A stretch of DNA of 64,000 bases from the NCBI RefSeq assembly GCF_037975245.1, contig NC_092562.1:28843554-28907553 (forward strand), written 5' to 3'. Numbering within the stretch: the first letter of the stretch is position 1; each line of letters starts with the position of its first letter. Both the position numbers and the translations under genes were made by a program. Positions 23,332 to 53,173 of the stretch are shown here, in pieces. Source of the stretch: Apostichopus japonicus (Eukaryota > Echinodermata > Holothuroidea > Aspidochirotida > Stichopodidae). The notes beneath the pieces are model-generated. The model was not told the DNA's origin, did not search any database, and worked only from the letters and a program-made list of their open reading frames with translations.

Positions 23332-23785
23332 CTACTTGACAGTGATACTGATAATCCTGATGTCATCATAAGGCTTCTCTGTCTTTGGACTGACCTTCAC
23401 CATACCTATCTTCTGGACGGCCTCCATGCCTTTAGTACAACGACCAAATACTGTGTGTTTGTTGTCTAGCCATGGCTAAAGATGGACGGACAAGAAAAGA
23501 GAAATTTGTTAAGCTTTATTGATGACTGGAGAGTTGTCATCTAAGTGCATTTAGTTAAAATGGTAATATGCCATAGCAAACTGATCACTAATGGGGAAAA
23601 GTTCACTGACTCCAACAAATTAAGTAGAGCAGAACTGAGCAATGAGACTAAATAGACTTAGCTTGATGAAGAAAATTATACAAGCAGTGAAGTGATGTTT
23701 GCAACTACAGCATTTAAAGCAGAAGAAAGGCTTATTGGACAAACATAAACCATAACATACATTACATATTGAATTAACGTATCTA

Positions 23786-23818
<33 letters not shown>

Positions 23819-29800: not shown

Positions 29801-32800
29801 TTGACCTAAGGAGCCGGTCACTGAGGGTGCACAGTGTTAAAGGGTAACCAGTTCATTCTAGACACGGTAGAATGAGAGTGCTAAGGTTGTGGGGAGATAG
29901 GTAAGCGAGGAGCAAAGTAAATTCCTCAAAGGGATTCTCAGGCATTTCAGAGACTGCAGATTATCAAGTGTTGCAGAACTATGTCAACTATGTAAGGGTT
30001 GCAGACTTATAGATAGATAGATATTTATTCAGCCAATCATATAAACATACAATGGAAATTGGTTGATAACAAGAGCTCAAAACATTAAAAATTGTAAACA
30101 ACATATAAGACGTACTATACATAGATAGGAAAACATTCCTATAAAATGTAGAAAAAAAAGAAAATGTACTCACAATATAAATATGAACAAAATATAAAAT
30201 GTACCTACAAAATATTTAAGCGTACAAAAATATATAAATGCCCTCATATCCAATATAAAGTCTACAAAGTATGTAATTGTCCATAAAATATTAAAATAAT
30301 GGATTATAAAATTATTTAACGGTTTTGCAGCCCACTGAATATCTTAACAGCAGAAGGATAAAAACTGTCAGTAAATCTTAGGCAAAGTAGTGATGTTTTC
30401 TTGAATATAAAACAGAGACTTTCTCCAGTTTCAGTTGTCTTCTTGACATATACTGCATAATACTTATACTATAGCTTGAGTTCAAAGCAATTCTCAGGAG
30501 GTCAGAGGTCATGCTGGGAAGACAATCCATCCCGTTTTCAAACCAAAGATTTACTTTTAACAAGAAGAATATTAATAAGTCCAATGTATAAACAAAGTGC
30601 GATGAGCAATGATTTACATGAGCTACAGCTGAAATACTTACCTTCCTATCTTTGGAAATAGTTGAGAACTGTTTGCCGTTTGGTGACACAGCGAGGCCAG
30701 TCGGTACTGTTTTACACTGACAGAAAAGAATTGAAATAAGTTGCAATTGGGATTCAGCCATATAAACATGAAGATTGAAGTTTACCACATTTCTGCTAAA
30801 TATGGTAGCAGAGTATCATGTTGCAAATATTGCAAAACTCATCACTATTTAATTTTCTCAGGCTCCCAGGTGCAAAAAAACAAACTGAAATCCTTTGTGA
30901 AATCCTCTGAAATCCAGGTGGTAAAAGGTCACATGTAACAGTTGCAAGTGAACTGTACAAAGTCTGTATGTGCTGAGGTGAGGGGGGTGGGGGGAGGGTT
31001 GGAGCATTGATGAAGATTCTGTCCATGAACTATCATTCTAGTGCCAGTACTCTCACAAAGGATGAAGATAATTTCACGTTCAATTAGACTAATTGTGATT
31101 TGAAGGGCAAGCCTATAAAGTACAAGGCCCAAGGAGGTTACATTTAGAGTCAAGATATAATTCTCTTGAGGATGGCATTTTGTTTTGCCCTTGAATTAAA
31201 TTAATTTCAAAGAAGAAGTCAGTTGTTCTATTGTACATGCCAGTCGTTGCCCTTATGAACTTTGATAATATAAGGCTATGAGGATGTTCAACCTCCTTGT
31301 ATTGAAACTGCTAAACAAGTTTTCATGTGTCTAGAAACCTAGCCAAACATTGCGTTATATTATATATTATGTTAATACCAACGGAAGTACAGCCTGAATT
31401 TACCTTGACAAACTCATAGAGATCTGTATCTGTTTTATACTTGAAGGCTACGTTGGATGGCAGCTTGTAGTCCGTCTTAGGCCCAGTCCAATATTCCATT
31501 ATACCCTGAGCATCTACAGAGATCACAGCCTCAAATACTGGATTGTACTAAAAGCGAATAAACAAAATGAAATAATCATGAAGAAATATGAAGGATCTAC
31601 AATCTATGAGGTTGTAGAGATTGAAAAGTTACATAATGCAAAGAAGTGATAAACAAAAATCAATTAAACTATTCACAGTAATTTTATAGTGGCATATCCA
31701 GGACATATTAATATTAATAGACAAAGTTTCATGATGGAGAATCTACAATCTGAGCAAACTTGACAATAGTTAGCTATCGATCCATAAAAATTGGATGTGT
31801 CATTATGAATTCATGATTTGCGCGATAGGTATCAATTGCAATAACACGTAAAGGTAGTATGTATAGACCCCAAATTATAGCACGCCATAATTGCTACAAG
31901 TTTTCAAAAAGTACTTTACTGGGGATCTGTGTTCTCCAAATTGTTCCCAGACATTCTAAATGAACACACAAGATGACTGAATGTCTCAGTGAGGTACATT
32001 TCTGCCAAGGTGGTATTAAAGACAGTTTAAGAATTTTGACCAAATGTGACCATATTTAAATGTCTGGCATATTTTGGACCAATACAGCATAACTTTAATG
32101 GTGAGAACTAACAGCTATGATGCAATACCTATAGTAGGCTTCACACAACTGATTGCTGTAAACACCAGTGTTGAAATACTTGTACGGTAATGAGAGGTGT
32201 CATCAACAATATCACTTTGCCACTGAGACTGCTCGGGCACAAACTGTCAGGGAACATCATTACTTTTTGCTTGAAGACTGTGTTGGTTGGGTGCCAATTT
32301 TGTGTAGATGAGAAAGGTCTGTAACTGTAACTACCTGTCTCTGCACATACCATCTTTTCAAAAGAACACAATCAATGAGAGGTCCCTTCTGATTGGTTCT
32401 TCTTGCTTACCTTCATAGCAACCACAGGTGCCGAGTGTAGTTTGTCAAGACAATGAATTGCTTCATTACTTCCCTTTCCATCGTAAATATAAATCTTACC
32501 GGAGCCTTTTTCTGATCTGTAAAGCAGCAAAAAGTGAAAAATAAAAAATCTTTAAAAGGGGCATTGCAAAGACAGACAATGTGACACATGTAAGGTGATA
32601 GTAAGTTGTAGCCATGTTTGTTCCTTGCTCAAAATATCTTAACTTATGGTAGTTTACACTTGTAAGGTGATAGTAAGATAGTCCACAGTACAAGCTGTAA
32701 ACAATCGCCCCATGTTTCATTCCTTGCTCTAAATATGTTAACTTATGGTAGTTTACACTTGTAAGGTGATAATAAGATAGTACCAGTAAAAGCTGTTAAC

Positions 32801-35800
32801 CATATAGCCATGTTTCATTCCTTGCTGTACATATGTTAACTGATCGCAGTTTACACTTGTAAGGTGACAGTAAGATAGTCCTCCAGTACAAGCTGTTAAC
32901 CATATAGCCATGTTTCATTCATTGCTCTAAATATGTTAGCTTATGGTAGTTTACATTTGTAAGGTGATAGTAAGATAGTCCTCAGTACAAGCTGTTAACC
33001 ATATAGCCATGTTTCATTCATTGCTCTAAATATGTTAACTTATGGCAGTTTACACTTGTAAGGTGATAGTAAGATAGTCCTCAGTACAAGCTGTAAACCA
33101 TATAGCCATGTTTCCTTCCTAGCTATTGATATGTTCAGGCATGGTCTTTTAAGTCAGCTGAATAAATATATAAATTCTGACATAACTTCAGCACAGTGAG
33201 AACATAGTGGATGACCTGTGATATATTCCCATTCAAAGAATTTAATTTCCTCTAATGACTTTTCTAGTTTCCTTTTTCCATATTGATTGTGATATATTGA
33301 GATACCGGGTTGGCTGCCACTGTGCTCTAAATTCAATGATTCATACAGATGCATTTATTTCTAATAAAATAGTTCAGACATGGTATATTCATGAAAGCAT
33401 AAGACAAGTTTGAACCAAATTCTGTGTCTGGAATATCCTCAGACAACTTACTTCAAAAAAGATTGCTTAACAAATAAAACATACTTGCGTCTTCTAATCT
33501 TATCCTTGCTCTATCGAGCGGCATACATAACTTACAGGTTGGAATGAAATCACTCTCACACTTCCACTTGAGAGAATACTCAATAATTAAGCAGGATTTG
33601 CTTTTTGTAAAGATGGCAACTTTGCTTTCTAAGTCTGTTTCATTTTGGATGGGGGGTGGGGGGAGGAAGGGAAAGGAGGAGGGATGGTGTTGTACTCACA
33701 CAGCCATGGCGGAGACAGCATCTCCGGCTCTGTAAATCCACTCACATCTTCCTGGATGGTAACCCAACTTCATCATATTGATCATGTCTGTGCAGAAAGG
33801 TAAGATACGGTAACAAACATATCATGAGGTCGGCAGTAATGAAGTTAGTTATTTAATGTAAGTTCTATAAATTCATATTCCCCTCCAGCATAGAAAGGAG
33901 GACTGAAGGAAGAAGTCAATGACGAATGAAGAATCAAACAAGATAACATAATTTATTCAGGCATGGGTGCTTCTCTGGAAACTGCCACACACTCTTGACA
34001 TGGTACATACGAGAATGAGCGTTAACCATCCTTCCGTGAGATCCAAATTATTGAGACGGTGCTATCTCAGACAGTAAAAAACTCTTGACATTGAACGTAA
34101 GAGAATTAGCATAAACCATCCTTCCGTGAGATCCACATTATAGAGATGGCATCACTCAGACAGTCAAAAACTCTTGACATGGTACGTAAGAGAATTAGCA
34201 TAAACCATCCTTCCGTGAGATCCACATGATAGAGATGACATCACTCAGACAGTCATTAATGCAGAAACACTTCATGCTCTCTTCTGCTTAAGGATAATGA
34301 TTGATAGAAAGAAGACATGCTAAACAACCAGGTAGAATAAAATTCATGGGTCACATCAATTTCTTACCAAAGTTGACAACATCAAATATCTTGGCTGCTT
34401 TATCTTCAGCTACAGTGCACATCAGGCTTCCATCTGTACTAGTTGACATGTCCTCAATTTTACCTAGATGCACAAAAAACCCCAAAACAAAGAGTTAGAA
34501 TGGAAATATAAATAACAGAAAATCTTGTTGTGTAAAAGTAAGTTGGCCTGACCTTTCCATCCGAGCAGGATCTTCTTCAAAAGCTAATTGACAAGTAACA
34601 GTAACAGAAGGGACACAACTCGCACAGAATACAGAAAGGTTAATGAGCATGGTGAACACAAAGAGATGGATGTCAGAAAAGCTTTTTGGTAGGGATATTG
34701 GATAAATAATTCTCTAATGATTCATCCTCCTTCCACTGCTCACTCCACTACGAGAAAGGAAAAGTCATTTTGGCCTAGGGGAAGAGTCATAAGTTTAGGA
34801 TTATTTCCTACTCCTTTGTGGAGCAAAAAAACGAAAACATCCTCAGGTTATCTACATGAAACCGGTACCAAATCTGAAGTTAAATATGCTCATTCTAGCA
34901 TACATAGTAAATACAATAATTCCAACTGATGTGAGCAAATCACTGTCAACTAACACAGTTGTTTAAGGTTTGTTTAATCCGTCGAGATGCTCCCATCAGC
35001 TGGCAACAATACAGATGTAGCAGTAAATCTAGATGTATGGTGATTATAGTTTCCCCGATTCCTTCCACACCCGAGTACCAAGTGTACTCTTTGAATCCAA
35101 TTGGGATATTCAGCATTTCTGCAGAGGGAACTGTCGTATTGGTTCTAACAACGCTGTAGATACGACTCTGGGTCCCAATGCACGTTATCTATCCTGTTTA
35201 CAGATTTCTAAAGATTTTTGACAGCACTGTAATATATCTCTATCTATGGGCTAGTGGTGAAACTTTGTGGAAATTCATCTTGCCTTCAATATTTACAAGA
35301 AGAATTGCAGGTCTTAGGCGCGGATATTTTTTTTTTGCAGACTTGTGATACAATTTCGTAAACCCAGTTTAGCAGACTTGATCGAAAATCCCTCTAAGGA
35401 GCTTTCTGATTGGTTTACAACCAGATGAGTGTAAAGTTGTCAAACTATACGGTGGGCAACATTTCGTTGTTAAAATGTGCTAGTTATGAGTAGTGAAAAC
35501 TGTACAGCATGTCAATTGGAACATGCTAAACTATGTGTGATTTAGGAAATGTGCAGGTACTGTTGCCCAGAAGTGTCCTTGAGATTCCTCAAAGGAATAC
35601 CCAGTGATTTCAGAGACCGCAACTTGTCAAGATTAGTGGAACTAAAAAGGACCATTTTGACAACACCCCTCTGTTAATTTAGTGTGTGACTGGAGATCCC
35701 TATTAGTATAACAATAAATAAATAACTTGTAATTCAAGGGTACTTTCTGTTCTGCTTGCCCTTACCTAAGTGAGCTCGAAAGTGTTTCACAAATTCTATT

Positions 35801-38800
35801 CCACCCTCCTCTTTCTTCCAGAACTTGACATGTCCATCACAGCTAGCTGTCATTACAAAATCAGACCTGGTGGAACAAGAAAAAAAAGTTATTGAGCAAT
35901 TAGTTTCAAGGTTGAATTAAGTTTTCATTCTCTAGGTTCCATAGGTGGGGGCTGTATCTGGACCTGAAGGAAATTCTTCCTATCAAACTTACTGCTAACA
36001 ACCAGACCAGCAATCACTTAGAAAGTCTCAATCAACATTCAATACACAATATTAAACTTATTTGATATAAAAAATATCAAAATATTAAAATGGATAATTT
36101 TCTCATATTTTGGATCTAAATATTGATGAAAATGGGATAAAGATCTTATGAATGTTTATTGTTTGTGCGAATATGAACATGTCTGATCAGCCTCAGTTAA
36201 TCGCACGTTTCAAGGGCAAATGACTACACTTGCATCGAAGTGGCATCTTGTGTTACCCATACATGGGTTACCAGATATCCCATTTTTGCAACAAAATATT
36301 TTGTTTCTCCGGCAAACTAAATTGTCCCGATTCTTTATAAAAGCTCTTTGTGATGTTAGAAAAGTAATTTTCATTTAATGATAGGCAAACTCAAAAAAGT
36401 ATGTATGCTGTATGCATCATTATACGTGACCGTTTCGGAAGCTGTATATTTCTTTCAAATTCAAATATGATTGATGAGTCCCCTTATCAACACCACAAAC
36501 TTATGAAAAAGCTTTGTTGCCCTTTTTAAAATCATAATTTTTTTCAAACGGGACGGAGGGATGCATTGTCACACTTTTCAACAAATAAAATATGACTATA
36601 CGTCTGTATATTGATGGTTTAAAAAAGATGGTTTCTAGGATTTTTTAGATTTTATGATGTTCTGTCGTGTTGGTTTTTAGGTTCTAACTTCAATTGGAAT
36701 TTTCACTTTTTGGCATTCAAATTGTAGATTTTGTAATTAATCTGTTTTATCGCTTTACTCTTCACCAGTGCTTTTAATCGTTTTTCGATCTCATATTCCT
36801 GTATATATATGTAGATGGTATATGTATTTACTGTTTTTTGTATTTAATGTTTAATGTCATTGTATTTTCTAGATTGTTTGTAAAGCGCACAGATGCATCG
36901 TGCGTAGTGCGCTATATAAGATTTTATTTACATTACATTTACATTACATATTCTGTGTACTTACTTTGCTACAGCCACATGAGTTACAAAGTCTCTATGC
37001 ATGTAACTCTTCTCATAGCATTCAGCGGAGGGTAGATTCTCCAAGTAAACAGCTTCAAATTCTAAGACTACAGGTGAAACAGAAAATACAATGAATTAAT
37101 AAGTTATGTCTCAATAAATACTTTGTAAAGCAACATATTAACAATCAGGATTGAAGTGTTATAATGTCAAAAGCTGTTTATTCTTTGGTTAGCAGAATAT
37201 TAGCAATTTGCACAGACTTTACACAGAATGTTGCAGTTTATTCGTTGGTTTCAGAATATTGGAAAAAAACTTGATAAATAACTCTGAAGTCAGTTAACAT
37301 ACAAAATTTGAAACTTGCTCACACAGGTTTGCTGTACTCAACTGTTAAAAGTAGGCAGATGACACATGAAGGTTAGGCTAAGATAAAGTGATGTTAGGAT
37401 ACCACTCCCCTCTGTATCAGCAAGAATTACATATTAGGTTGCCTGGTTACGCTACCTTAAACAATATAGCAGCATCTGTAAATGCCATCCTACTTGGACC
37501 AATAGCTTGCATGACAAACAGGTACGGAATCTGATCAGATACGTTATAACATAATGCACCGACTGGTTATGTTACCTTAATACCCTGTCCTTTCAGGTAT
37601 GTAGCGAATGGACCGATAGCTTGCATGACAAACAGGTAGGGTAAGGCATGATGAACCATCTAATCACGGAATCTGATCAGATACGTTATAACGTAGTGCA
37701 CCGACTGGTTATGTTACCTTAACACCCTGTCCTTTCAGGTATATAGCGATTGCACCGTCTGTAGCTGCCATCCTACTTGGACCGATAGCTTGCAGGACAA
37801 ACAGGTACATTGAAGCACAGTATACTAGCTAGTTACGCCACCTGTTCTGATACTCTTTCACGACTGTTGCAACATATACCGTGATGCACCATCTGGTATC
37901 GCTACACCACTATTTCCTCTCCTGAGACAACGAAGTACATAACGAAGCACCATCTTAAATGCCACCTTCAGGATGATCACCGTAACGCACCGTAAACCAG
38001 CTAGTTCTGTAAACTGCACTGTAAACAGCTAACTGTAAACCAGAACTGTAAACCAAGATTTGCAAGATTTGGCACTCTACCACGGTGATCAGATACGGTA
38101 TAACGCAAAGCAACATGTGTTAATGCTATCTCACTTGTCTTCTTCTGGGACAACGAAGTACATAACGATGCACCATCTTAAATGCCACCTTCGGGATGAT
38201 CAGTTACCGTAACGCTTCGTAAACCAGATAGTGCTATGAACTGCACTGTAATCAGCGTTCTGTAAACCAGCTAGTTTTGCTGCAAGATGTGGGGGTCTAC
38301 CCAGCGATCAGGTACGGTATAACGTAATGTGTTTATGCTATCTCACTTTTCTCTTCTTCTGGGACAATGAAGTATATGGTCAAGCATCATCTGTAAATGC
38401 CACCTCACTTAATGCTCTACCCAGTTATCAGGTATGGTACAGTGTAATACACTACATGGAAATAAATGTCATCTCATTTATTCCTCTCCAACCATAAATC
38501 CAGCAAAACTCCTAAAAGACAATTGAAACTAAATTGTTATTTATATTTAAAAAGTTGAAGTTTTCCCATGGGGGGTGTATACCTTAGAGACAAAACATTT
38601 ACATATCCAAGAAATATGTACACACTCCAACAGAATTCAATTTTGAGATTTTTGGACCTCAGAACATTTCCTTGCCATAAACTGAATTTCATGGATGGTT
38701 TCATATTTAATGAGATAAGAAAAGGGTGAGAGGTTGGATGGATGGTACCTCATAAAGAGCGTCAATAAACCATGTTGTCTGGTGATCTATGATATTTTTC

Positions 38801-41800
38801 TTTTATCGGATTCAAATTGATGTAAGTACTACTGCATTTTTTGTTTGTTTCATTGAAAACAAACTTGATCTAACCAGTAGACAAATAAAAACACAACACA
38901 GTTGGGATAACTCCATATTTTGATGCAATATCAGATCATATATTGATTACATTTTGCTTGGTAGATATTCATTGAATTAGGCTCGCATGGCAGATGTTTA
39001 AAACTGCCTGTATAACATGCAAACTGGTATTCACCTTTCTCATTTCCTATATCGGAAGCAGGTGATACAATAACTTCTGTAATTTAAAGTTTCTTTATGT
39101 TTCGATACACAAGTTCCTTTACATCACTTAATAAAGACAAGTCATCAGTAGTATTTATCACTTATCCGTGAAGCAGTTGTTTGCACTTTGTTGTTAAAAT
39201 TCTGCAGTTTTACAGACCCTTTAACGAATCGCTCCAAATACGACTGACCGATTAAAAGTCTTCAATTGATGTAATTTAATGCAACTTGACAAGCTAGAAA
39301 TCTCCATTATTACAGAATTATAGCATTGAAATAGCATTCAAATTTACAAAGTTCTCATTCATTATAACAGGATTATAGCATTCAAATAGCATTCAAACTT
39401 TCAAAATTCAAAATCAATCAAAACAACTACAACATTCAGGTAACTACTGTAGTTCATAGTTGCATGTCACTAAAATATTTCAAGCAAGACTTTCAAATTC
39501 CAATTTGGCATTGATTACAACATCTCCCTCCAAACCACAAGGCACTCATTGTCCATTCTGCAAGACATCTAACTTTGGATATGATATATTTTGGGTGGGT
39601 GGGGTTAGTGATTTGGGGGGGGGGGAGGGAGACACTATGGTGTCTAAGTCTAGATATGACTGCAACAGTGCCACCAGATATGACATTCCTTTTTAGTTCT
39701 ATTTTCACTTAGTAGAGTCAATGACATCACCAGCATACCTCAAGAACCTTAAAATTTAAAAAAAGGCATTCATCAAGAAGTTTCCAACTTTGAACAAATA
39801 TATGCGGAAGCCTATAAAATGTTGTGTTGACGTTACAGTTCATGCTGAACTGGTAAGATAGTATGTATGTTAGGAACAACGTACTCTTCACAATACAGTT
39901 ATCGATTTTACTACAAGCGATAGTTCAGAAAATGTTGCACATACAGGGATATCCCGTCACCCTCTTCCCCGAAGAACGAACAATGTAAAGATATTGCCGA
40001 TCGTTAGGGAAACATGAATGTCCTCTCTCTTAATTGATTAACTGATCTTCTCTGGTGTTTTGTTGTAAAGTTCTGAGCAGGATTCAAGAAGCTGAAGAGC
40101 AGTCATGTCTCCTGCATCATACTGCTGCCACAATAGAAATATAGACCGTTGTGTATTTAACCCTTCACTCTGTTTCAAGTTTGATTCAGAGACCAGATGA
40201 ATCCGTGGGGTGACATGTTGACTCTTCTGGCATAAAACCTTCACAAGTTTGTAGAAAGGGTATCCCCTCTGTTTGGTGGCTTTCCGGCCCACTGGGTGCC
40301 AGGATTCCAAGTCTTTGCTACTGCAGACACTGTGCTGGTAGACGCTCCACGTCTCTGGTGGCCAGAGCTTATCACAAAGCCAGGTACTGGATACGTGATC
40401 AAATAGCTGCAAATAAATTAATATAACAAACAAGAAAACAAAATTAAAGAAACACACAGAATTAAAGTACCAATGATAATCTAAGTACAGTATAGTGTTT
40501 TTTCATTAAAATTCCATTAATCATCCAAATACCAAATTAGAAAGGTTAGTGAAATTGATTGCTGCCATCTGGAATGTCTTTCTTAAGAATGGAAACATGT
40601 CAATCAAATATTGGTGGCAGCATTCTGTTTCTTTTTCAGGTTTCTGTGAGGATTATCCTATGGCCATTACATATAGAGTTTCTTTTCTTTCTCGGTTAGT
40701 CATCTATACTCTGGCTGGTGAGTGATGGTGGTTACTGTATGAGTTTTGTTCACATCTATGATACCCTAAACAGGACTGTTATTCTCCTAATTAAGAGACA
40801 CACATGTCAATGTTGACAAGCAAGTTGTTGAAACATTGGCTCTCACAGCTACTGACTCTACATGCTGTAGTATGTACACACTACAACACATTCTCTGAAA
40901 ACTGCCAGTCCAATGATCTGTTTCAAATAATGGACGGTACTGGAAGGGTATTGAATTAAATGTACCACAACCTAACATGGTGTAACCATGGCGATTGATG
41001 ACAGCTTCTCAACTGACTGCAGACTCTGGATCAAAATATTATCACTCGCATTAACAGATTCAGCATCACAGCAAATGTTAAAGAGAGATAAAGAGAGGGA
41101 GAGAGGTAAGGAGATGGAGGGATAGAGGGAGGTAAACTGATATGATTTACTCATTGTCGACAACAAAGACATTTCCAAATAGAAAATACACATACATGTC
41201 TATACTGTGGACGATACACATACATGTATATACTGTGGACAATACACATTCATGTGTATATTGTGGACAATACACATACATATATATACTGTAGATAAAC
41301 CAGATGAAACAACAACCACAGATACGTGTTCCTACCTTGATAACCTTTCCAGAGTCTGTCAAAGCCTTTAGTTCATGGAATGTGGCAGGAATCACCTCTG
41401 CAGGCAGGTAAGCCAGAGACATTAACTTGCTGAGTATACTATGGACCTTCTCCTCTTTTAGATAAGCCCACGTCAAATCAAACTTGGCTATTTTGGCCCA
41501 GACGGAGTGTTTCCACTGGTGAACGTACCCCTTTAACAAAACACCCTGAAACACCTGGCTGACGGACTTCCACAGGGCCTTATCATAGTCCAAGGTTATC
41601 TCTGAAAGGCTGACACTGTCGCCAACTAATGACTTTATCACTCGGAGGACCTCCTTATAGTCTTTGCTCTTCTTCCCTGACATCAGCACGAAGCAAAACG
41701 GTAAGAACTTGATCACCTTTCCCTTTTTGACGTAGCAGTTGATAGATAGCAGGTGTGTGAAGGGATGCCTGACCAGTCTGCTAGTTTCATGAATATACCA

Positions 41801-44800
41801 TCTATCTGCAGATGCTAGATTTACCAATTGGGAGTTGGTTGCCATGACGATGTGTCTCCTTCCTTTCACATGGACATCACCTCTAACAAAGTCTGAATGG
41901 TAGAAGAAACAGAATTGTTTGCCATAAAAAGTATAAACTTTATAAAAAGTATAAATGCAGAGCTGCCAAATGTCAAATGACCACTATTAGCCCTAATATG
42001 TCAAAACCTCACCCCCTCCTTAAAATAAAAAGAGTAAAAAGAAATAAAGAACATTAATCCAAAAATGGGTAACATGATGGAACATTAAAAGCACAAATAG
42101 CTCAACAAATCCTCTTTGATAGTAACAAGAACATAATATGACCATTCTGCAAGATACAATGAACCAGATGTTTGAGAGACTCATATTAGAAAAGAAAAGA
42201 AAAATGCAATCGTGGACTGGCTTTGGCATAACTGTATATCCAATGCAGATAAAGATTAGTATTTTAACATTCAGAGAAAAAGTCCTCTGGTACAGTATGG
42301 TGTAAAGTGCTATGTAAAACTGGTTAAAGTTCCTACACAAGGTACAGCAATTTTTATGTATACATTGCTGGAAACACTATTACCATATTGTGATGAATAA
42401 ACAATAATTTGTGAACTTTGAATTGTCATGCAACTTCTAAACAGTGAATTATCCCATCGTAATCTGATGAAGTGAGAGATTTTCCACAGACATATTTACC
42501 AAGGGTTAACATGATTCTTCATTTCCAAGTAGATGTTAGTGAAGTGTATAATTTGTAGCATAATTCTGCAACATTAAATGGCACAGTTCGCATATCGTGA
42601 TTGATAGAAGGATGTATTCACAACACACTGAAAAAACCTCTTCCATGAAAGTGAAGTTTCAAGACAATGTTCTAATCACATATTTTGTTTTACTAAGTGT
42701 TGATGGCTTTTCAAATTCTGTCAAAAGTAGCCAGTAGTTAGCATAATCAGTATTTAAAGAGGGACAACAGACTTTTCCAAGATTGTAAAGATCTGTTGCC
42801 ACATTAATGCAGAAAATTAACGATAAAAGTTTAAATCTAGTATAAAAGGGCTAACATAATTATGCTGCAGATGTGACCGGCTGCTGTAAATGACTGTAGG
42901 CTAGATACATACTGGTACTGCTAAAAGTTAAAATCTCTCACAGGACAAACCTACAACTTGTTAAACTGAGACCACCCCCACCCTCCCAATCCCACCTCCC
43001 CATCCCCCTCTCCCTACCATTTTCAAAATCAAAGAATACATCAATGGATACAACGTACCATTTGGTATGTACTCTGAGATGAGATCAAACTTTAAATTCT
43101 TCAGCTCGGCTGGGTACATTTTTTGTCGATGTCGATTGGCTTGTCTTACGAGAGATGACTTGGTGGGCAGTCCGGGGAAAATTCCGCTAGCACCGACCTC
43201 GTTCACTATGATCTCGGTGACTATTGAGCCGGGCGATCTCAGTATTTCAGTGGCAGCTCTCTCCTTGATCCTGGCTCTGAGCTGCATTATCAGATGATCA
43301 TCTTTCTTGCCCTCGTGGATGTGCTCCTTGGCTCCGAAAGTGAATACATCTCCCGTCTGCGTGACGGTGGCATAACAACGGAGGGTGTCGTTACGTATAG
43401 AACATCTGGTGAATAAAATTAAAAGGAGGGACGTAAAATTAAGGCAAGATAGAACTACTGTAATAATTGCATGCAAGGAATTTTTAGGGTTGCAAACATA
43501 TATTGCTAGAAACGCACGACCTCACTAAGTTTCAGATTGGAATATCTTTTCCGGTTAAAGGTTTGAATGGAAACAGCCTTGAATAAACCATTAAATTATT
43601 ACTGCTTAGTTGGGTTGGTACTGACAGGCTCAGAAACATACTGTTACTTGGTAATACTATGAGTCACACCCACATTTGTTAGATTTGTGCCACAATTTTC
43701 TTGGGATAAAACAAATACAGGATATCAATAAATTATACGTCATTTTAATACCACACAGGCACTCTCAGTGCCTGCCTCATTCTATCTGCTTGCTGTGGAT
43801 TAGGTTAAAGGACTACATGTGATATTGTGGGGGTTCAGGTTAACGTACCAAACCAACAAGATTTGATCATATTTAAAGCGAAATATCGAACAGTGTTATT
43901 ATTAAGCATTGTCATTCTGCAGTGTGTATGTTGTGCTCAAGCACATCAAATCAATTGAAAAACGTCACAAACTGGGACCTTATGTCAATATGGACTGACT
44001 CATGCACCACTGTTACAAGAAATCTCAGCCATCAACTTAATGGTGTTAAACTACCCTAGATTTGTAAGAATTGCTTCTTTATCTGGTCCTGTTACAGAGA
44101 GTACTTGCATCAGTGATCTGTCCCAGTGTTCCAACATATATATGATGTGAATGTGCTGGTGAATGTGGTATTAAACTGCCACTACTAAGGTCTACTCTAT
44201 ATGCAGCTAATGTACATGTCTTTTTCAATAATGTGGTATTAAACTGCCACTGCTATGGTACTCGATATGCAGCTACTGTACATGTCTTTTTCAATAATGT
44301 GGTAAACTGCCATTACTAAGGTAGTCTATATGCAGCTACATGTCTTTACCTCCAGGAGGTTCCTGTTTCGGTCTTTCTTCTCATGGTGTAACTATATCCT
44401 CTGGTGTCAATTAACTTAGGTCTCTGGCGCTGGGAAGAACCCTCCACGATACTGTAGCTGACATCCTCCTCACCACCGACTGCAGACTTACTACAGCCGG
44501 CATCCGGTGTTTTCTCGACAGTTTGGGCTTCGAGATAACTTAAGCTAGCTTGGTTACCCTCAACAGGAACCCCAGCCTCTACAAGAACTTCTGACATCCC
44601 CTCTGTAGGTGGGTCATCGTTTGTGATATCTGCTTCAGCTGTTGACGTGGTGATGACATCTTCACTAGATATCACTACCTGAAAGTCTTGAGGCTCTGAA
44701 AGAGCTTCAGTGACCTATTGAAAAGAACAGCAATATGTACAGTAGGTAAGTGCCATATACAGTGCATGATAAAAGTATTAATGCCTACTGTAGGTGAGCA

Positions 44801-47800
44801 CTGTGTAAGTGCCACATACAGTGCATGACCAAGGTATAAATGCCTACTGTAGGTGAACTGTGAGCACTGTGTACACAGTAGGTAAGTGTCAGATACAGTG
44901 CATGATAAAAGTATTAATGCCTACTGTAGGTGAGCACTGTGTAAGTGCCACATACAGTGCATGATAAAGGTATAAATGCCTACTGTAGGTGAGCTGTCAG
45001 CACTGTGTACAGAACAGTAGGTAAGTGCCACATACAGTGCATGATAAAAGTATGAATGCCTATTGTAGATGAGCACTGTGTATGTGCCATATACAGTGCA
45101 TGATAAAGGTATGAATGCCTACTGTAGGTGAGCTTTGAGCACTGTGTACACAGTAGGTAAGTGTCACATACAGTGCACGATAAAAGTAATAAATGCCTAC
45201 TGTAGGTGAGCAATGTAGCAGCCACGGTTTCTACATCTTTGGTTTATTCAGAATTTTTTTATGTTTAAACGAGAAATCCTGTTTTTTTAAATCATTGAAT
45301 TCCAATATTTTTGCTATTAAATGAAGATATGTATGACAATAAGTTAACTAAAACCTCACACTACCCGTTTGAAATTGAGCTTACATATGAAATTTAAAAT
45401 AAAATTTACTTTCTGAAATTTACTTAAAGACTGCACAATATTTATTCAAATGACAGAATATTACTATACCCCATTATCGTTTACACACACACACAAACAC
45501 ACAGTGATACATTAATTTTAAGCATTGAAACCAATTCTGTTAGAATTGTCTACAAAGTCTTCAAAGGAAAGCTCATCAAATTAAATAAGAACCTGAAGTA
45601 ATGAATGTACTCAGTTCTTCAACATACAATAGTAAAGTCTTTTGAATACATTTGGCAAAAGTTAAAATTTCAGCCAATTACCAAAGTTTAAAAGATTCTC
45701 CTACAGTGCATGTCACCAGTGAGATGCCTACAGTACTCTTGACGTGATAGTTTCAACTAGAAAGTGTCAAGCCAGTGAAGCAACAATAGAAGATGTGGAA
45801 ACGATGTCTACAACAGAGAGCGATCTAGCCAGCACGTAGTGAGCCAGAGGACTACCTTTACTACACACTGATCAACCATCGTCCTTACCACTTGGACAAC
45901 CAATCTCTGAAAAACGAGTCTGTTCTTTCTGAAGGAATCAATCACTTCTATTCCAACAAGATGTCAGCTATTTATCACAAAGCACATGTGTGCTTCGCAA
46001 ACTTGCAAAATACGTTTTCACTGACCGATTGAATGGGGAGTATCTAGTGTGCAGTGTGATTATACTTACTGGTAATCCAATGAAAGAAAGTGCAAAAGTT
46101 GTACTTGGAGAACAATTCTTGCATTTCCAAATGATGTTACAGCAAGACTTCATTGCTTCCTTGTACAAAGTTGAACTAATGCCTAAAGGAAAGATAAAAA
46201 AGTTAGCAGTATTAAAAAATACTAGGGTTGGGCGATATTTGCTTTTTAATGTCACGATAAATAGTTCAAAAATTATCGCGATATTTCGATAATTACGATA
46301 ATTTTTTCTTGTTGTTTTTAGTGTGTTCGCGAACACACTAAAAACAATTGCCGATTTCCCACCGGTGTTTTCGCGCAGCAAACACACCGAGCATAATGGC
46401 GTGGGGTTCAGGCCCGCCTTAGAGCCCCGTTGGGGTCAAGGGGTGGAACCCCTTGTGGAGGTCCAGGGGCGAAGGCCCCCGGAAAAGTTAAGTATTTTTG
46501 CGTGTCTGGCGATAAAAAATTCGCATTTGAGGATTCCAAATACTGACTAACTTTATGAATTTAAATTGTAACGAAACTGATGAAAGTTTTAAAATGACAA
46601 GTTAGAGTAGCTATATTATGTGATAAAATGAAAAGAGAATTAATCTGTCTTACAATCTTTATAAAGTTTAACTTACAAAACTGTCGAAATTATGAAAAAA
46701 ACTACGTTCGGCAAAGCCCCGTTTCTAGACTGCCTAACAATCAGTTTACAACTGCAGTGTTTAACCGTACTTAAATATCACGGTAGGCTACAATGTGCTT
46801 CAAATTTTCTCAGGTACCTCGCAAAACAACCCCCCTGTCTAACACCTGTTTGTTAACATTTTTGGCACGGTTCCAAAAAACTTTTCATGGAGTAAACTTT
46901 TTTGGCTCCACTGTAGAATTAATTAGGTAAGTCAGTAAAGGATCCGTAAAGTTATGCGAAATATTATCTTAGACGTTCAAGGAAAGTAGGTAAATATCCC
47001 CGTAACATTAAGGTAAGTAAAACACACCTCAAGCCAACCGACTCCTCCGCATGAACAAAACAATATTTTCCCAATGATACACGAGGCACAGTCTATACCA
47101 TACAGACATAGCACGATATCAAGGCCCCAATAGCTACAGTATGGCCATCTTTATGAAAGTAAACCTTGTAATTCCATGTTTTAGGCCACCAGGCGTGATT
47201 AATTATTGCTAAATATTGTTTCCATGTCCTTGTAGAAATCGTCAACTTCGAAAAATACAATTAGTTGTGTTTTTGTTGTTACGTGAGATCCGTAACCGAC
47301 GAAGTGGTTAGGCTATTTACTATACACTTAACTATGGTAGGATATTATTATTATTATTTTTTTTGGAAATTCTATAAAATACTTTCTTTCCCCCGCTTTA
47401 CACCAGATGTGGTCTTCTGGTTTATTCATAAATGGGTGTACTAGAGCCTTGTTTACATGACACTTGTTGCATTTAGCACGATATGCCAGTTTTGCGTGAA
47501 TTTTTCGAAAGTATTTTGCTCGATCTATCGTAAAATTAGAAAGGTGTACCAACTTACTTTTCGTACACAATTGGTAATTTCTCTACTGATTTTCAGAGTT
47601 TTGTTCTCTATACAGTCAATGTTGTAAAGAACGGGTTTTTACGAAGTTCAAAAGTCAGTAAATGAAGTTGATAAAATATTTCTTTTCAACTTTCTTAACC
47701 ATGGAATGCTAGAATAACATTTACACATAAAACGGAAATTTTTTTTCCTACATCTATTTCAAATTTCTTTCACAAGAAATTATCGTCATTTGTTCAATCC

Positions 47801-50712
47801 TCAAAAAATATCGTCTTGAAAAAAAATTATCGCGATAATAATAATTTTCGATATATCGCCCAACCCTAAAAAATACCCCCAAAAAATTAATAGTTAAACA
47901 GCTGTTATCACTTATTACTGAACATGAATATTGCATAGTTTATAATTGACGCAGAAACCCCTTGCACGAGATGGCTAAAGAATGTATAAGCCAAAAAGGG
48001 TTATGCACTACTTGCAAGCAACAATCTTTATGAATGAGACAAAAATGACACATCATTCTGAACTGGAGAGACCTGTTAGCTCAGACAATATATCAATTTG
48101 ATAACGTATACCAATTCTGTACACATGATAATACACAAGTCACTAAGTAGGTTAGTTTATAACTTTGTTTATGGTTCTTATTCTACAGTAATATTCACAT
48201 GAATCACATTGTTGAACTGGTACACTTTCATTGGAAATTTTGGGAAAAATTCAGCGTTCAAATTTGGTGTAGCAGTTTCGAACGCTCAGAAATTTATCAC
48301 TTATAAAATACTATGGATCCTGTATAAAATACTGCTATACATCTACAGTACAAGAGTAATGTGCATATAGCATTTGGGATGGGATACCAGATATATATGC
48401 AAATTATTCCCTAGAATTGTTATAAAGTAAGATGTTTTCACTTTTCTACTCGGTAGTGACTAGTTCTGTAGGAGACATGGTTTCAGTAAGTCACAAAAAC
48501 AGTCCAAAATCAACATTATTTGAAAAATAGTGTGATATATTTAATTTGCAATATAGTCAAGATATATATATTTATATAAATATTTTCAGTGTGACCTACA
48601 AACTGTAATTAAAAGTTCATAGTAAAAGTACAATATCCATAATTTTCTCAAAATGGAAAATCATGTTACTTTACCCGACATATATTTATGTTGTATATAT
48701 ACTTCAATATAAAGTGTTATGAATTTGTGTCATGAAAAGAAAGCTCACAGAAGAAAACTAGGAACAAAATTTATATATAAAAGAGTAAAAAAAAAAGAAA
48801 AAAAAGAGCGAGGCAATAATTGGAACTAACAGGATTCCAGTAAGTGCGAGTTGTTAAAGAATTGGGCAATAATGACATTCAAGGCCTCTGTACTGTACAT
48901 GGTACTTACCAGTCTCACATGCTATGTGCTGTCCATTCGAGCAAGATGCACAGTCCACCCACTCCTCGCTGCTTGTATCTATGTTCCTTCCACACGCAAT
49001 GCATGGAATGTCACCTGTGGAAGTAGATGCTGCCTGATTGGGACCTGGTTACATTTTTATGCAAACATAGGGACTGCACAATATGTACAGTATATATATA
49101 CAGTAAATCTTCCATCTAAGGAATTACCTTCAAGTTGGGTTGGCGCGAGCTCAGGTAAATGTGAATAAAACGCAACACAGCTTAGTATAGAAGAATGGCT
49201 CTGCACTGTACACTAAACCTATATCAATAAAAATTTATTTCATATTGAATAATTTAGCATCATGAAGAAAGCAGGATACTTTCCGACCATTGCCTAAGGT
49301 TAACACCATAAGTGCTCCCAACACTTACTTAAATTGTGGGTGACATGCACAACACTTTATGAGCCAAAGTAGTTACAGCTAAATCAGCCTACAAAATCAA
49401 TCTTACTTGCTGACATCAAATCAAGCTTTCTGTATGCAACGAGATTATCCTGTATTCTTGTTCAATTTTCCATATAAGCCAGGCAGACTTGGCAGGCACT
49501 TTTCTTTTTAAATGACAAAACACAGATAAAAGTACTGTAGCCTTAGTCAGGCCTAATTGTGGGGCCTAGCAATTAGACTTAGGCCTAACATTCAGCTTAC
49601 TGAGGCTAGACTTGGACCTAAGTTAGGCATAATCTTGGTTGTTTGCATTAACTGTGAGCTTTTGTAATAAAAACCTGTATTTATGGGGGAAAGAAATGGT
49701 GGCAGCTGTGTTGGAATGTACTGTTTCCCTACTACCTACACGACCTACTTTAGGGCACGTAAGGGGCCTAGGCTTAGTGGCTTGATCGTGCATAGTAATT
49801 TTACACTTCTAACTTCCAAGAGCTTCTAAGATCTTATAAGTTCACCACCAATTTTATTTTGCTTTGCTTTATCCTGTTACCATGTGATTCAATTGAAATT
49901 GATCAGAATTAGGCTATGCCAGAATGAAATTAATTTGCATTTGTACAGGTCCCATGTAAGAGCAATTACAAGAAACTGCTGGCAAATACAAAATTAATGT
50001 GTTCTCTTTGAATTCTAGCCTAGGCCTATTTGATTTCATGAAGGCTATATGCTAGAGATTAAAACTTGCATTAAGCAGTTGCTTCAATTTGATAATTAAT
50101 CATGGTAACTATAGTGTGCAAAGACGTATGAAGTATTAGCCTATGCAGTAGGCAAAGTTACGGAATTTTTATTTACTAAAATACTACTTCTAGTTCTAAC
50201 TGACGTTCTAGGTTGGTAATTAGTACCACGTTTGGACTTGTACTACAACAAGCTTCAACTATAACCTAGTACTACTGGGCTAACCTTACTGATTGTCTTT
50301 CAATCAAGTTCATATGTCGTACCTAGTACGGGTATGTCGGGACAGCCTACCCTAGACTTAATAACAAATAGTCTATAACTTACAACAAGTGCTACACCTA
50401 ACACTACAGTAGGCATATGTACCATAGCGCACATACTATACTGTAGGGCTTAGCAATAAAATAAGCAAAATATGCCTAGGCCCTAGCCTAATGTTAGGCC
50501 TAACCGTTACTTGTCACAGTACGAACGACTAGGTCCTAACTTTTTAAGACTCAAATGAGCCTGAACGGCGAACCTTTTCGCTTCTTTTCTTTCACAGCTT
50601 CTGTTGGCATTGGTCCTATCCATTCATCTTCTTCTTGGTTTGTTTCATCACCGGTAGGTTCACTATGTTGTCTTTTCCTATCACTGCTTTCGCTAGCCAT
50701 GGTAGCCGCCAT
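23332..50712 (-). CDS. PPWD1: Peptidylprolyl isomerase domain and WD repeat-containing protein 1, 16 coding exons
   Basis: PPWD1 is a nuclear cyclophilin associated with spliceosomal complexes. Exons in order: 50574-50712, 36965-37067, 35766-35866, 34368-34463, 33700-33787, 32411-32516, 31404-31547, 30642-30716, 29108-29282, 28535-28632, 27956-28155, 27009-27075, 26515-26594, 25087-25199, 24141-24292, 23332-23475. All phases match; the total is 627 codons with TAG (626 aa; human about 646). The start is MAAT at 50712, with A at -3. The N-terminus holds the acidic [12 protein letters not shown] motif and KKRKVLEFE, which is split by intron 1. WD40 repeats fill roughly residues 70-330, and [13 protein letters not shown] follows. 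The cyclophilin domain (about 472-626) keeps the catalytic set as in CypA: FHR, SFMVQ, MANAG, QFFIT, PWLDNKH. It should therefore be an active prolyl isomerase. Intron 1 (about 13.5 kb) starts with a weak donor (GTTCGC) and contains another gene on the same strand. Several introns hold minisatellites. Confidence 0.95.
23780..23818. repeat. TCTG/TCTA microsatellite, PPWD1 intron 15
   Basis: A run of CTGT/CTAT tetranucleotides in the last intron of PPWD1. Confidence 0.9.
24345..24655. repeat. TATGGTATAGGTC minisatellite, PPWD1 intron 14
   Basis: Short units TATGGTATAGGTC and TATGTATAGGTC alternate irregularly for about 300 bases, just upstream (minus strand) of the exon 15 acceptor at 24292. 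Confidence 0.95.
25346..26470. repeat. 48-bp minisatellite, about 23 copies, PPWD1 intron 13
   Basis: The copies are near-identical 48-base units, each containing CACTATGAACTGCTTGTG and GGTCATTAGCACTATC. Because 48 is divisible by three and the unit lacks stops in one frame on each strand, it yields a 353-codon frame on the minus strand (16-residue unit [16 protein letters not shown]) and a 356-codon frame on the plus strand ([16 protein letters not shown]). The array sits between PPWD1 exon 14 (25087-25199) and exon 13 (26515-26594), ending 45 bases from exon 13. I interpret it as non-coding intron sequence. The outer copies are the most diverged. Confidence 0.95.
29380..29985 (+). repeat. 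Old dispersed repeat, copy A (PPWD1 intron 8)
   Basis: Scattered but collinear similarity to 35150-35645 in the same orientation. Examples are TGTGGTGAAAAA/TAGTGGTGAAAC-type words, TTTCTGATTGG, and ATTTCAGAGAC near the end. The order of matches is preserved over about 500-600 bases. There is no coding potential and no class call is possible. Confidence 0.55.
29986..30360. other. AT-rich stretch in PPWD1 intron 8
   Basis: It begins with a short GATA microsatellite (about 30010-30025) and continues as A/T-rich sequence without exons. Confidence 0.5.
32580..33125. repeat. About 108-bp tandem repeat, about 5 copies, PPWD1 intron 5
   Basis: The units share TTTACACTTGTAAGGTGATA, GTAAGATAGTCC, CAAGCTGTTAACCATATAGC and CATGTTTCATTCCTTGCTC in the same order. 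Copies start near 32590, 32655, 32760, 32850, 32950 and 33050, with increasing regularity. They lie between exons 6 and 5. Confidence 0.9.
33985..34260. repeat. About 88-bp tandem repeat, 3 copies, PPWD1 intron 4
   Basis: Each copy contains ACTCTTGACAT, AACCATCCTTCCGTGAGATC and a TCAGACAGT word. The array lies between exon 5 (33700-33787) and exon 4 (34368-34463). Confidence 0.9.
34531..34595 (+). repeat. Dispersed-repeat fragment sharing the SASS6-intron hairpin word
   Basis: It reads AAAAGTAAGTTGGCCTGAC then CTTTCCATCC and AGCAGGATCTTCTTCAA. The first part matches the arms of the inverted repeat at 13682-13743, indicating a shared interspersed family in different gene introns. Confidence 0.55.
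35150..35645 (+). repeat. Old dispersed repeat, copy B (PPWD1 intron 3)
   Basis: Partner of 29380-29985. Collinear matching words include ACTCTGGG/CTCTGATT with AATGCA, CAGATTTC with AAAGAT, TTTCTGATTGG, and GATTTCAGAGACCGCA. It appears heavily diverged, so insertion is old. Confidence 0.55.
36845..36957 (+). repeat. Probable 3' tail of a degenerate LINE-like element
   Basis: TTTGTAAAGCGCACAGATG, then GTGCGCTATATAAGATTTTA, then a short TTACATTACAT-type repeat tail. The GCGCTATATAA-plus-simple-repeat ending is typical of many non-LTR element tails; this is from general knowledge, with no database match made. It abuts the PPWD1 exon 2 donor at 36964/36965. Confidence 0.45.
37440..38470. repeat. 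Degenerate tandem-repeat region in PPWD1 intron 1
   Basis: Repeated words ATGTTACCTTAA, CCCTGTCCTTTCAGGTAT, ATAGCTTGCATGACAAACAG and GATCAGATACGTTATAAC recur two to four times with irregular spacing. A second set, GACAACGAAGTACATAACGA and GTAACGC-GTAAACCAG, lies at about 37920-38350. No coding frame persists across it. Confidence 0.75.
38471..40037. other. 3' flank of the nested gene, non-coding
   Basis: AT-rich intron-1 sequence of PPWD1, downstream (minus strand) of the nested transposase-derived gene. It includes a short direct duplication around 39300-39400 (TTATAGCATT, AATAGCATTCAAA) and a G-rich tract at about 39595-39625. No exon seen. Confidence 0.45.
40038..49014 (-). CDS. PHD finger, FLYWCH and MULE transposase-derived protein nested in PPWD1 intron 1
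   Basis: Exons in order: 48910-49014, 46070-46182, 44350-44714, 43059-43405, 41336-41892, 40038-40406 (TAA at 40038). All junctions are GT-AG and phases match, giving 617 residues without the missing N-terminus. Exons 1-2 form a PHD-like C4HC3 finger: CIAC, WVDCASC, H-IAC, then WKCKNC. Residues about 173-220 form a FLYWCH-type finger split by intron 3: [23 protein letters not shown]. Exon 5 is a MULE transposase core: [39 protein letters not shown]. Exon 6 has WPPETWSVY and KDLESWH. At the first catalytic position, where MULE cores usually have a DGTF-like motif, it reads HETS. Loss of activity is therefore likely, and a domesticated DNA-binding role is my inference. An upstream exon probably ends at 49128 (donor GTAATT), with its 5' end unresolved. 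The gene could also be an old transposon remnant, but intact frames over six exons argue for constraint. Confidence 0.8.
41180..41300. repeat. Short tandem repeat near the nested-gene exon 5 donor
   Basis: About four copies of a 27-33-base unit containing ATACACATACATGT and ATACTGTGGACA, lying about 40-150 bases downstream (minus strand) of the donor at 41336. Confidence 0.85.
41893..43058. other. Intron 4 of the nested gene
   Basis: AT-rich sequence with a C-rich pyrimidine stretch at about 42970-43015 next to the exon 4 donor. I see no additional exon. Confidence 0.5.
44130..44349. repeat. About 66-bp tandem repeat ending at the nested-gene exon 3 donor
   Basis: Three units share GTGGTATTAAACTGCCACT, then ATATGCAGCTA and CATGTCTTT. 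The last unit runs directly into the exon 3 donor (TGTCTTTAC|CTCC on the plus strand), so the array includes the intron side of that splice site. Confidence 0.85.
44740..45215. repeat. Composite tandem repeat beside the nested-gene exon 3 acceptor
   Basis: Alternating blocks of ATACAGTGCATGATAAA, AATGCCTACTGTAGGTGAG and CACTGTGTA with AGTAGGTAAGTG, in about seven blocks. It starts roughly 25 bases upstream (minus strand) of the exon 3 acceptor at 44714. Confidence 0.9.
46223..47868. mobile_element. Non-autonomous hAT-like DNA transposon, 1.65 kb
   Basis: The terminal inverted repeats are TAGGGTTGGGCGATAT at both ends (16 of 16 bases), with subterminal ATTATCGCGATA words on both sides. The flanking 8-bp duplication AAAAATAC occurs at 46215-46222 and 47869-47876. 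An 8-bp target duplication plus a T/CAGGG-like terminus is characteristic of hAT elements. No transposase frame is present. Internally there is a 36-bp perfect palindrome (46312-46347) and a GC-rich block (about 46411-46487) with short GGGG/CCCC inverted words. It sits in intron 1 of the nested gene, 40 bases from the exon 2 acceptor at 46182. Confidence 0.85.
46312..46347. repeat. 36-bp perfect palindrome inside the hAT-like element
   Basis: The two 18-base halves are exact reverse complements with no spacer, centred on TTCGCGAA between 46329 and 46330. It could extrude as a cruciform or mark an internal element end. Confidence 0.95.
47877..48909. other. Intron 1 of the nested gene, AT-rich
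   Basis: No exon seen. It includes an A-rich tract with scattered G at about 48786-48810. Confidence 0.5.
49129..50573. other. 5' flank of the nested gene within PPWD1 intron 1
   Basis: The sequence is rich in TAGGCCTA-like words (about 49540-49620, 50010-50050 and 50450-50510). An upstream exon or exons and a promoter for the PHD-FLYWCH-MULE gene should lie here if it is transcribed independently of PPWD1. I could not delimit them. A frame open from about 49170 to the donor at 49128 is a weak candidate exon. Confidence 0.4.
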
Positions 50713-53173
50713 TTTCTGATTCTGCTGAAGTTTTGGATTGGTTAACTCGTCCACCCTGAAAGCAAAACAAGCACAACTCGCTCTTTACATTATAGTGTAG
50801 CTGAATGATAGGAGGCAAGCCGGTCGAATTAGTCCAGCTCCGTTTATGGCTCTCCCTAGAAGCTATGGCCGAGTAGGCAGTTTTCAGTAAAAGGTTTTGA
50901 ATTAGACGTTGTTGCAGTTCGTCGAAGATATTTTCGGACTCGATCGAATAAAATACAGATTTATCTAAGCAATGCAACAACATGCTATCATTAAACATAA
51001 TATTGATGTTATCTGCAGCAAAATTGAACATAAGAAGCAACTTTTATCGAAATATTTTGTATTGATGTTCATACAAACGTCTGCGAGAAACATGCTTATA
51101 TATGAATAAACATCAAGATACGTTATTATGTCTCATGATTATTCAGTTCAAAAGTTTCTGGTCAACTCGCTGAATCTACCTGCTGAAGACCCAAACAGAG
51201 GATTTTAAACCTGGTTAAATCTTTCGTAATCATAATTAATCTTTAAGACTTTTAACATGACAATATTCTGCTATCCTTTGTTAATCCATTCATAACATTA
51301 TTTCGGGTTTACAACACCAAGAAAAGAATTCGTAAGCAACATATTACTGGTATAACAATGCAACTACAGCTTGTCTCGTAACATACCAACAGAAGTTGTA
51401 CGCATACGAAGGAGGCAAGTATGAAATGAGAAATGTCATGTAAACAGTCTGTTGTGTTGTACTTGTATACTCATTGTTAGCATTGAGATTCAGCTATTCT
51501 ACGACAGTTTGCCAAAAGTTGAACATGTTCACTCTTTGCAGTACCATTTTAAAACTCGTTCGTAAACAGTGAGCTACTACTACTTGTACTACGATCAATA
51601 CACAATGTAAACCCTTAGCCAGCACTCCCATTGCCATGGCAAATAGCAGTGTAGGTACTGTAATTACTACTTCATATCCATAATCATACTGCATGCTGTC
51701 TGTTGATATCGGAGGAAGACAAAAATGGGCAAGATTGCAGCATAAAAATAGTACATTGCAAGCACCCGCCACAAATCGATCACAACATTGCAGCCTACAG
51801 ACCAAATTCCAGATTGTGTGGAAACTGATTTCCATTGTGACAGGTGCACTGTAACAAGTTATAATTTGTTGGCCTTCATTTACTAAAGATGGTTGAACCT
51901 AATAGATGACAAATTCTTCCAGTGATCCTCCCAATAGTATGAAAGATCTTAGATCTGTTTGTGTACCTCCTCCAAACAATATCAGAGAATGCTTCTTGCA
52001 TATACATACCTATGAGGCAGAGATGAACCATATCATTCCTATGGCTCCACAGACTTCAATGCAGGTTCATGACATAGATCTGGGGTGAGGGGGGATGGGT
52101 GTGAGATGGGGAGGGGTGGAGGCTAAGTCGCACTCCACCTACAACTGGCAGGCCTGATATTACAGAAAACCCAATTGTGCAGTGCATATATATAGAGTGT
52201 TCGTACATCAGGAAGCTCTGGTTCGAATCCGGTGGAGGCTGGAAATTTATTCATTGTTCTGGATTTTCCAACAGACTACATTTCAATATATTCAATTGCC
52301 TAAAGTTGTAGCTTATTTCCATTAACAGAGTCTGTTCAAAATATCTCTTTTTGAGATCCGGCTTTAGGAATCACAAATGAGTTCCAGTTATCATGTTTGA
52401 TTACTAGAGTAAGGCAAAATATATCACCAAAACAGAACTAGCATTGTTCAATACAGGTGACAGATGCCGACATTGAACTTTCTACCTTCCTCACCAGTTT
52501 CGAACCTCTGGACATACAATCAGCGGCAATAAAATGTATGAGCGGTACAATATAATCCAGGGAAATGGCTCAACATTCTTTCAAAAGTTGTAAAATGTAG
52601 CACCATTTTGCAGTGAAGGAGCCATCCCATTCCTGGACAAGATAACATCTTATCCCTCCCCCACCCCCCCCCTCTCATCCTCCAATACAAAAAGGTGTAT
52701 ATATATATATATGCCCTTGGTTGATGGTATGTATGCTGTAGATTATATAAAGAATTTGTCTCCTTGGGTTAATTGTTAAAATATATTTGAGGTCCAGATT
52801 GTGTGTGTTTTGAACCGCATGCTATCTACAACTTGATTTCTTAGAGCAATGAAGGATGCCTATTTGACCTTGTAATATGTTCTAGACATGTTAGTACTGT
52901 GACAATTGTATGAAAATTCTATAATGTCAATGGTAAGTTTGTGTATGTTTATTGTATATATTTTAATTTAATACAGTTAAGATATATACTGTACAGGACA
53001 TAGTTTTAAATCTTGTTCTTCATATTTACAATCATGACAATTGACCTTAAATCAAATTTTAGCCCTTGTTTTGCAAAATTTAATAATTACCTTGTATTTT
53101 AGTAAATTATGAATGACATACAGTAATAATAATTCTGAATTTAATGACACTTAATTTACGTATTGTTTTGCAG
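50713..53173. promoter_or_regulatory. Head-to-head intergenic region of PPWD1 (-) and RNF220 (+)
   Basis: About 2.5 kb lie between the PPWD1 start codon and the first recognised RNF220 exon. A pyrimidine-AG acceptor (GCTTTCAG on the minus strand, at about 50756) just upstream of the PPWD1 ATG suggests a spliced 5' leader. A minus-strand open stretch at about 50770-51040 (with DELQQRLIQNLL) might be that leader or a chance frame. RNF220 5' exons are expected here; an open frame at 51906-52088 does not join the next exon in phase. An AT dinucleotide run lies at about 52696-52712. No TATA box is called. Confidence 0.4.

Follow-up and report, generated by a model that had tools for sequence, protein, structure and literature searches.

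Is the first intron of PPWD1 in Apostichopus japonicus home to a separate gene, descended from a transposase and retained by its host, or are the six exons found there on the host's strand an alternative product of PPWD1 itself? We addressed this question in a stretch of 64,000 nucleotides, called here the window (C2:28843554-28907553), and in the whole genome assembly, which comprises 671,581,487 bases in 35 contigs. Among these contigs is a second mitochondria-like one, C29 (31,219 bp), besides the 16,099-bp C35; it carries COX1 in shifted pieces and is perhaps a duplicated mitochondrial assembly or a nuclear copy. In C35, the COX1 codon for the invariant Asn of GGFGNWL is AAA, one of those by which the echinoderm mitochondrial code, which flatworms share, departs from others; this agrees with an echinoderm origin.

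The host gene reads as follows.

50574..50712, minus strand, PPWD1 coding exon 1: 46 amino acids with a basic KEKKRK end, matching human PPWD1
36965..37067, minus strand, PPWD1 coding exon 2, preceded by ctgtag at the splice site
23335..36964, minus strand, remainder of PPWD1: 14 more coding exons recognized by eye, with the WD40 and cyclophilin parts; boundaries approximate

The N-terminal segment, the start of the WD40 region, and the C-terminal cyclophilin domain all match human PPWD1. Searched against the PDB, the product of exons 1 to 3 finds human PPWD1 with an E value of 2.7e-41; that of the final three coding exons finds its cyclophilin domain (2a2n) with an E value of 3.5e-76. The joints between exons 2 and 3 and among exons 14 to 16 were placed by eye. 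Exon 1 ends in the donor AAG/GTTCGC (AAAAG/gttcgc; the slash marks the splice site) in phase 1, and joining it to exon 2 restores the family sequence in phase. A reading of the sequence alone had proposed that these exons rejoin in perfect phase some 13.5 kb apart, and the intron indeed measures 13,506 bp. The same reading had put the other PPWD1 introns at about 0.4 to 3.1 kb; the upper figure looks too high: we measured about 0.35 to 1.4 kb with approximate boundaries, and an exon had probably been missed. Another PPWD1 intron contains a 48-bp minisatellite (25250-26605) with 23 in-register copies, the central ones 98 to 100% identical, and one of its reading frames stays open for 363 codons.

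Between the first two PPWD1 exons lies the gene referred to here as the guest.

48910..49014, minus strand, first identified guest exon (exon 1): first half of the PHD finger; no ATG; acceptor in phase 1
46070..46182, minus strand, guest exon 2: second half of the PHD finger
44350..44714, minus strand, guest exon 3: linker and start of the FLYWCH finger
43059..43405, minus strand, guest exon 4: end of the FLYWCH finger and start of the transposase region
41336..41892, minus strand, guest exon 5: MULE-like core with altered catalytic motifs
40038..40406, minus strand, guest exon 6: C-terminal part with an acidic residue retained in DLESWH, and the stop codon

The earlier proposal of six same-strand exons at this place is borne out: all five introns are GT-AG, the phases are consistent, and the 618 codons contain no stop before the terminal one. 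The chain of exons tracks homology to a full-length transposase and so can hardly be due to chance. All of the exons lie on the host's strand within a single host intron, so the nesting that had been claimed holds by sequence; what had been called a nested PHD-FLYWCH-MULE gene may, however, be a host-transposase fusion isoform instead. Five AATAAA or ATTAAA signals occur on the guest strand between the guest stop codon and PPWD1 exon 2, a number that we judge close to the expectation from base composition, and they carry no weight as evidence.

The first guest intron has itself received an insertion.

46223..47868, no strand assigned, hAT-like nonautonomous insertion: 1646 bp, ends TAGGGTTGGGCGATA.../...CGCCCAACCCTA

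It is flanked by an 8-bp target duplication, GTATTTTT, and lengthens PPWD1 intron 1. Out of 1268 first-look candidates, 40 genome places including this one were scored; the other copies are 94 to 98% identical, and the insertion therefore looks recent. Elsewhere in the window, two inverted repeat arms (14957-15306 and 22677-23004) are 86 to 93% complementary, lie about 7.4 to 7.9 kb apart, and are perhaps the ends of a mobile element. At 54583-55070, on the plus strand, the 3' end of an exon with its donor is followed by five near-copies spaced 80 to 91 bp apart, a tandem repeat of an exon end together with its 5' splice site; the exon is presumably RNF220-like.

The guest is a single-copy gene in its own genome. 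A tblastn search of the 671.6-Mb assembly with the guest protein returned 47 places, six of which belong to the guest itself. Of the remaining 41, the top match, on contig C17, has 39% identity across 235 residues; a place on C21 reaches the highest identity, 41%, but across just 49 residues. The C17 place is a relic of a PHD-FLYWCH-MULE transposon, intronless through its PHD-FLYWCH part, whose protein begins MTEQYICIDC. Guest and relic share 119 of 332 residues in the N-terminal part and 33 of 102 in the C-terminal part; the third bases of their shared fourfold codons are identical in 13 of 57 cases and are therefore saturated. The stretch of C17 from about 11 to 26 Mb holds 6 of the 11 FLYWCH and 13 of the 38 MULE matches in the genome; the contig makes up 37.2 of the 671.6 Mb.

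Comparison with this relic clarifies what the guest encodes. Its FLYWCH finger exceeds the Pfam cutoff (24.5 versus 23.6 bits; E value of 3.2e-5). The PHD finger falls below its cutoff (17.5 versus 24 bits), with an E value of 0.0043 when the stretch is scanned alone; the relic's own PHD finger scores 28.5 bits alone and 23.3 in a longer frame against the same cutoff of 24. The MULE region is also below threshold (14.6 versus 27.6 bits; E value of 0.046), and its homology is seen only via relatives. Both the PHD and the MULE regions of the guest align with the relic transposon, as do all eight PHD and all four FLYWCH zinc ligands. The guest gave nothing significant in the PDB (best E value, 0.15), and a search of its exon 5 against viral contigs brought up no relative.

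The catalytic motifs have fared differently from the zinc ligands. The catalytic residues of MULE transposases are a first Asp, a second Asp, and an acidic residue, together with a C..H motif. The guest has neither a complete DDE triad nor the C..H motif: the first Asp has become His (WYIHET versus WYIDGT in the relic; codon 41791-41789), and the C..H motif is gone (GYVHQW at 41530-41513 versus GCAFHW). The acidic residue of the relic's DVEGWH is kept in the guest's DLESWH. Both Asp residues and C..H are present in all eight other MULE cores that we read, which are loci fetched from the 38 genome places above the cutoff and thus chosen by profile, a choice that favors intact motifs. Among seven relatives in which the first motif can be read, it has Asp in six (L047, L022, L031, L048, L032, and L036) and Lys in the seventh, L049. 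In L049 (C20:7573500-7581999, at about 4600-5397), the first motif reads RYAKATSK and the second LEFE, where the counterparts in L048 are RYADATFK and MDFE; L049 is perhaps a second catalytically dead lineage.

How does the guest begin? Its first identified exon takes one base from a predecessor; thus, a phase-1 donor must precede it. Whether that predecessor is a micro-exon of its own or PPWD1 exon 1 is, as read from the letters, about an even choice. The following features bear on it.

49407..49416, minus strand, candidate own first coding micro-exon ATGTCAGCAA: MSA plus the first base of the next codon; donor CAA/GTAAGA, phase 1, 10 nucleotides
50501..51600, no strand assigned, CpG-rich run spanning PPWD1 exon 1 and its presumed promoter

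With no ATG in its first identified exon, and with that exon phase compatible with PPWD1 exon 1, the guest may be a fusion isoform, a reading toward which the earlier remark on possible chimeric mRNAs already points. There would then be no independent nested gene: PPWD1 exon 1 would be alternatively spliced either to exon 2 or to the PHD exon at 49014, an arrangement that we consider plausible, if somewhat short of an even chance. The predicted product, a 664-amino-acid protein joining the PPWD1 N terminus with its KEKKRK to the PHD and FLYWCH fingers and the dead transposase, would come from a transcript polyadenylated inside intron 1, and to this too we give slightly less than even credence. 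The host donor, 1.56 kb upstream, and the transposase acceptor are on the same strand and in phase (1 to 1), although the phases would be expected to agree in about a third of cases by chance alone. There is a CpG-rich run at the presumed PPWD1 promoter and none upstream of the guest at 48301-50500; this test is weak, however, because the window has 14 such runs, one of them over the hAT-like insert, and they are not specific to promoters. Precedents point the same way: the acceptor just upstream of the transposase frame resembles that of CSB-PGBD3 (PMC3459987), and a human survey classed 22 of its 53 same-strand "nested" genes as splice variants of their hosts (PMC3192792).

The micro-exon argues for an independent nested gene, whose promoter would lie within PPWD1 intron 1 and whose coding start would be the MSA at 49416; this also stands a little on the doubtful side of even. 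The donor formed by ATGTCAGCAA followed by GTAAGA is strong (7.1 bits, at 49407) and in phase 1, and the N terminus that it predicts, MSASDIPCIAC, is nearly as long as the relic's MTEQYICIDC. The same human survey judged 31 of the 53 same-strand nested genes to be individual ones (PMC3192792). On the other hand, an equally good candidate appears in 11% of Markov shuffles of the 1.56-kb stretch when two to four codons are allowed and in 22% when one to eight are allowed; with up to 60 codons, 36% of the shuffles hold one and the real stretch holds four. The missing CpG-rich, promoter-like run upstream also speaks against a separate promoter.

The splice sites themselves fit either start. The donor of PPWD1 exon 1 is weak, at 2.2 bits against 3.65 to 9.13 (leave-one-out) for the 11 other window donors on which the matrix was built (six from PPWD1 and five from the guest). 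The acceptor of guest exon 1 has the poorest pyrimidine tract (12 of 20) among the 12 acceptors scored, which comprise the six of the guest and 6 of the 15 of PPWD1. By analogy with CSB-PGBD3, both an own start and a fusion to PPWD1 could be in use.

Whichever way it starts, the guest could in principle be a dead, intron-containing MULE relic that was inserted too recently for its frame to have broken and that never became a host gene. Its transposase origin would suit this, yet we consider it unlikely. The nearest relic family occupies four genome places, with DNA 87 to 89% alike in long pieces and 82% in one 124-base piece. Frame changes break the C17 copy, and stops break two others: C22 carries 11 across 334 aligned N-terminal positions, and C16 carries 5 and 6 in two aligned stretches. 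The C1 copy is a fragment. Of seven aligned C-terminal pieces, six are without a stop, yet one copy has its pieces in more than one frame. At the density of stops in C22, a decaying frame of 618 codons would be expected to hold about 20, and the guest, despite several changes in its catalytic motifs, has no stop or frameshift. It is also single copy, without a close relative in its own genome, and has introns where the nearest relic has none through the PHD-FLYWCH part.

MULE transposons are recognized by terminal inverted repeats and a duplication of about 9 bp; our search at E values up to 5 found no pair of inverted repeats whose arms bracket the guest. The C17 and C22 relic copies share about 4.5 kb, and the limits of this shared sequence show no obvious inverted repeat either. 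Finally, an assembly misjoin that placed the guest between the PPWD1 exons is very improbable, with PPWD1 exons 1 and 2 and the guest each found once in the whole 671.6-Mb genome and in order on the 32.6-Mb contig C2.

The guest in PPWD1 intron 1 is thus probably a transposase gene that is catalytically dead and has been domesticated: it is single copy, its frame is open, and its catalytic motifs are lost. We envisage that a copy of a PHD-FLYWCH-MULE transposon came to lie in this intron in sense orientation and then lost its ability to transpose and gained introns, although the order of these events may have differed. The host would have kept it as a single-copy gene for a nuclear protein, presumably transcribed and under selection, whose PHD and FLYWCH zinc fingers would bind chromatin and DNA. 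The PPWD1 mRNA would run from exon 1 to exon 2, skipping the whole 9-kb guest gene, and the guest mRNA would end at a poly(A) site inside the PPWD1 intron. Part of the divergence between guest and relic may be older than the insertion, the frame having then been kept by selection on an active transposon.

Neither domesticated transposases nor same-strand nested genes are new. What this locus adds is a clean test case for how host-transposase fusions begin outside vertebrates: a PHD-FLYWCH-MULE gene, catalytically dead but open in frame, that occupies intron 1 of a splicing-related host whose first exon is phase compatible. It is also a warning to annotators, since PPWD1 could be wrongly split or merged in gene models of this region. 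That the locus uses PPWD1 exon 1 to make a fusion of PPWD1 with the PHD-FLYWCH-dead-MULE protein, and so offers an echinoderm counterpart of the transposase capture in CSB-PGBD3, is a tentative proposal that we hold at not quite even strength. If it is true, a zinc-finger chromatin protein borrows the promoter and basic N terminus of a spliceosomal cyclophilin gene, and the relative amounts of PPWD1 and fusion depend on which acceptor is chosen.

We found no apparent description of a transposase nested in PPWD1 in the open-licence literature, so far as its available text extends. The closest parallel is the primate CSB-PGBD3, a piggyBac element on the sense strand of CSB intron 5 that alternative splicing attaches to the host exons; it has lost a catalytic Asp, its four other copies have decayed, and a cryptic promoter in host exon 5 additionally yields a solitary transposase (PMC3459987). 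The guest resembles it in being a sense-strand transposase in a host intron, with an acceptor just 5' of the frame, the Asp lost, and the other copies decayed. It differs in being of the MULE type with PHD and FLYWCH fingers, in lying in PPWD1 intron 1 of an echinoderm, and in having five introns of its own; moreover, for the guest a fusion transcript is at present a possibility. For tetrapods, a review reports 106 such host-transposase fusions, which arose through alternative splicing (PMC8616336).

Among human protein-coding nested genes, 53 of 158 are tandem, that is, on the same strand as the host, and these divide into the 31 individual genes and the 22 most likely splice variants cited above (PMC3192792). 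Like them, the guest is protein coding and lies inside a host intron on the same strand; unlike them, it is derived from a transposase, and it may depend on PPWD1 exon 1 for its start. The FLYWCH finger of Mutator-like transposases has been kept in host genes through independent recruitments reported in several phyla (PMC10027918), but the guest retains a whole transposase and a PHD finger and is nested in a named host gene. Among the transposons themselves, a PHD finger is reported for Rehavkus transposases, recorded there from insects and annelids only, and a FLYWCH finger for several MULE groups (PMC6446971). The guest has a FLYWCH finger as well, and its putative PHD finger scores 17.5 bits (cutoff, 24), with 8 of 8 ligands aligning with those of the relic; it departs from these transposons in having no intact DDE triad, flanking inverted repeats, or further copies.
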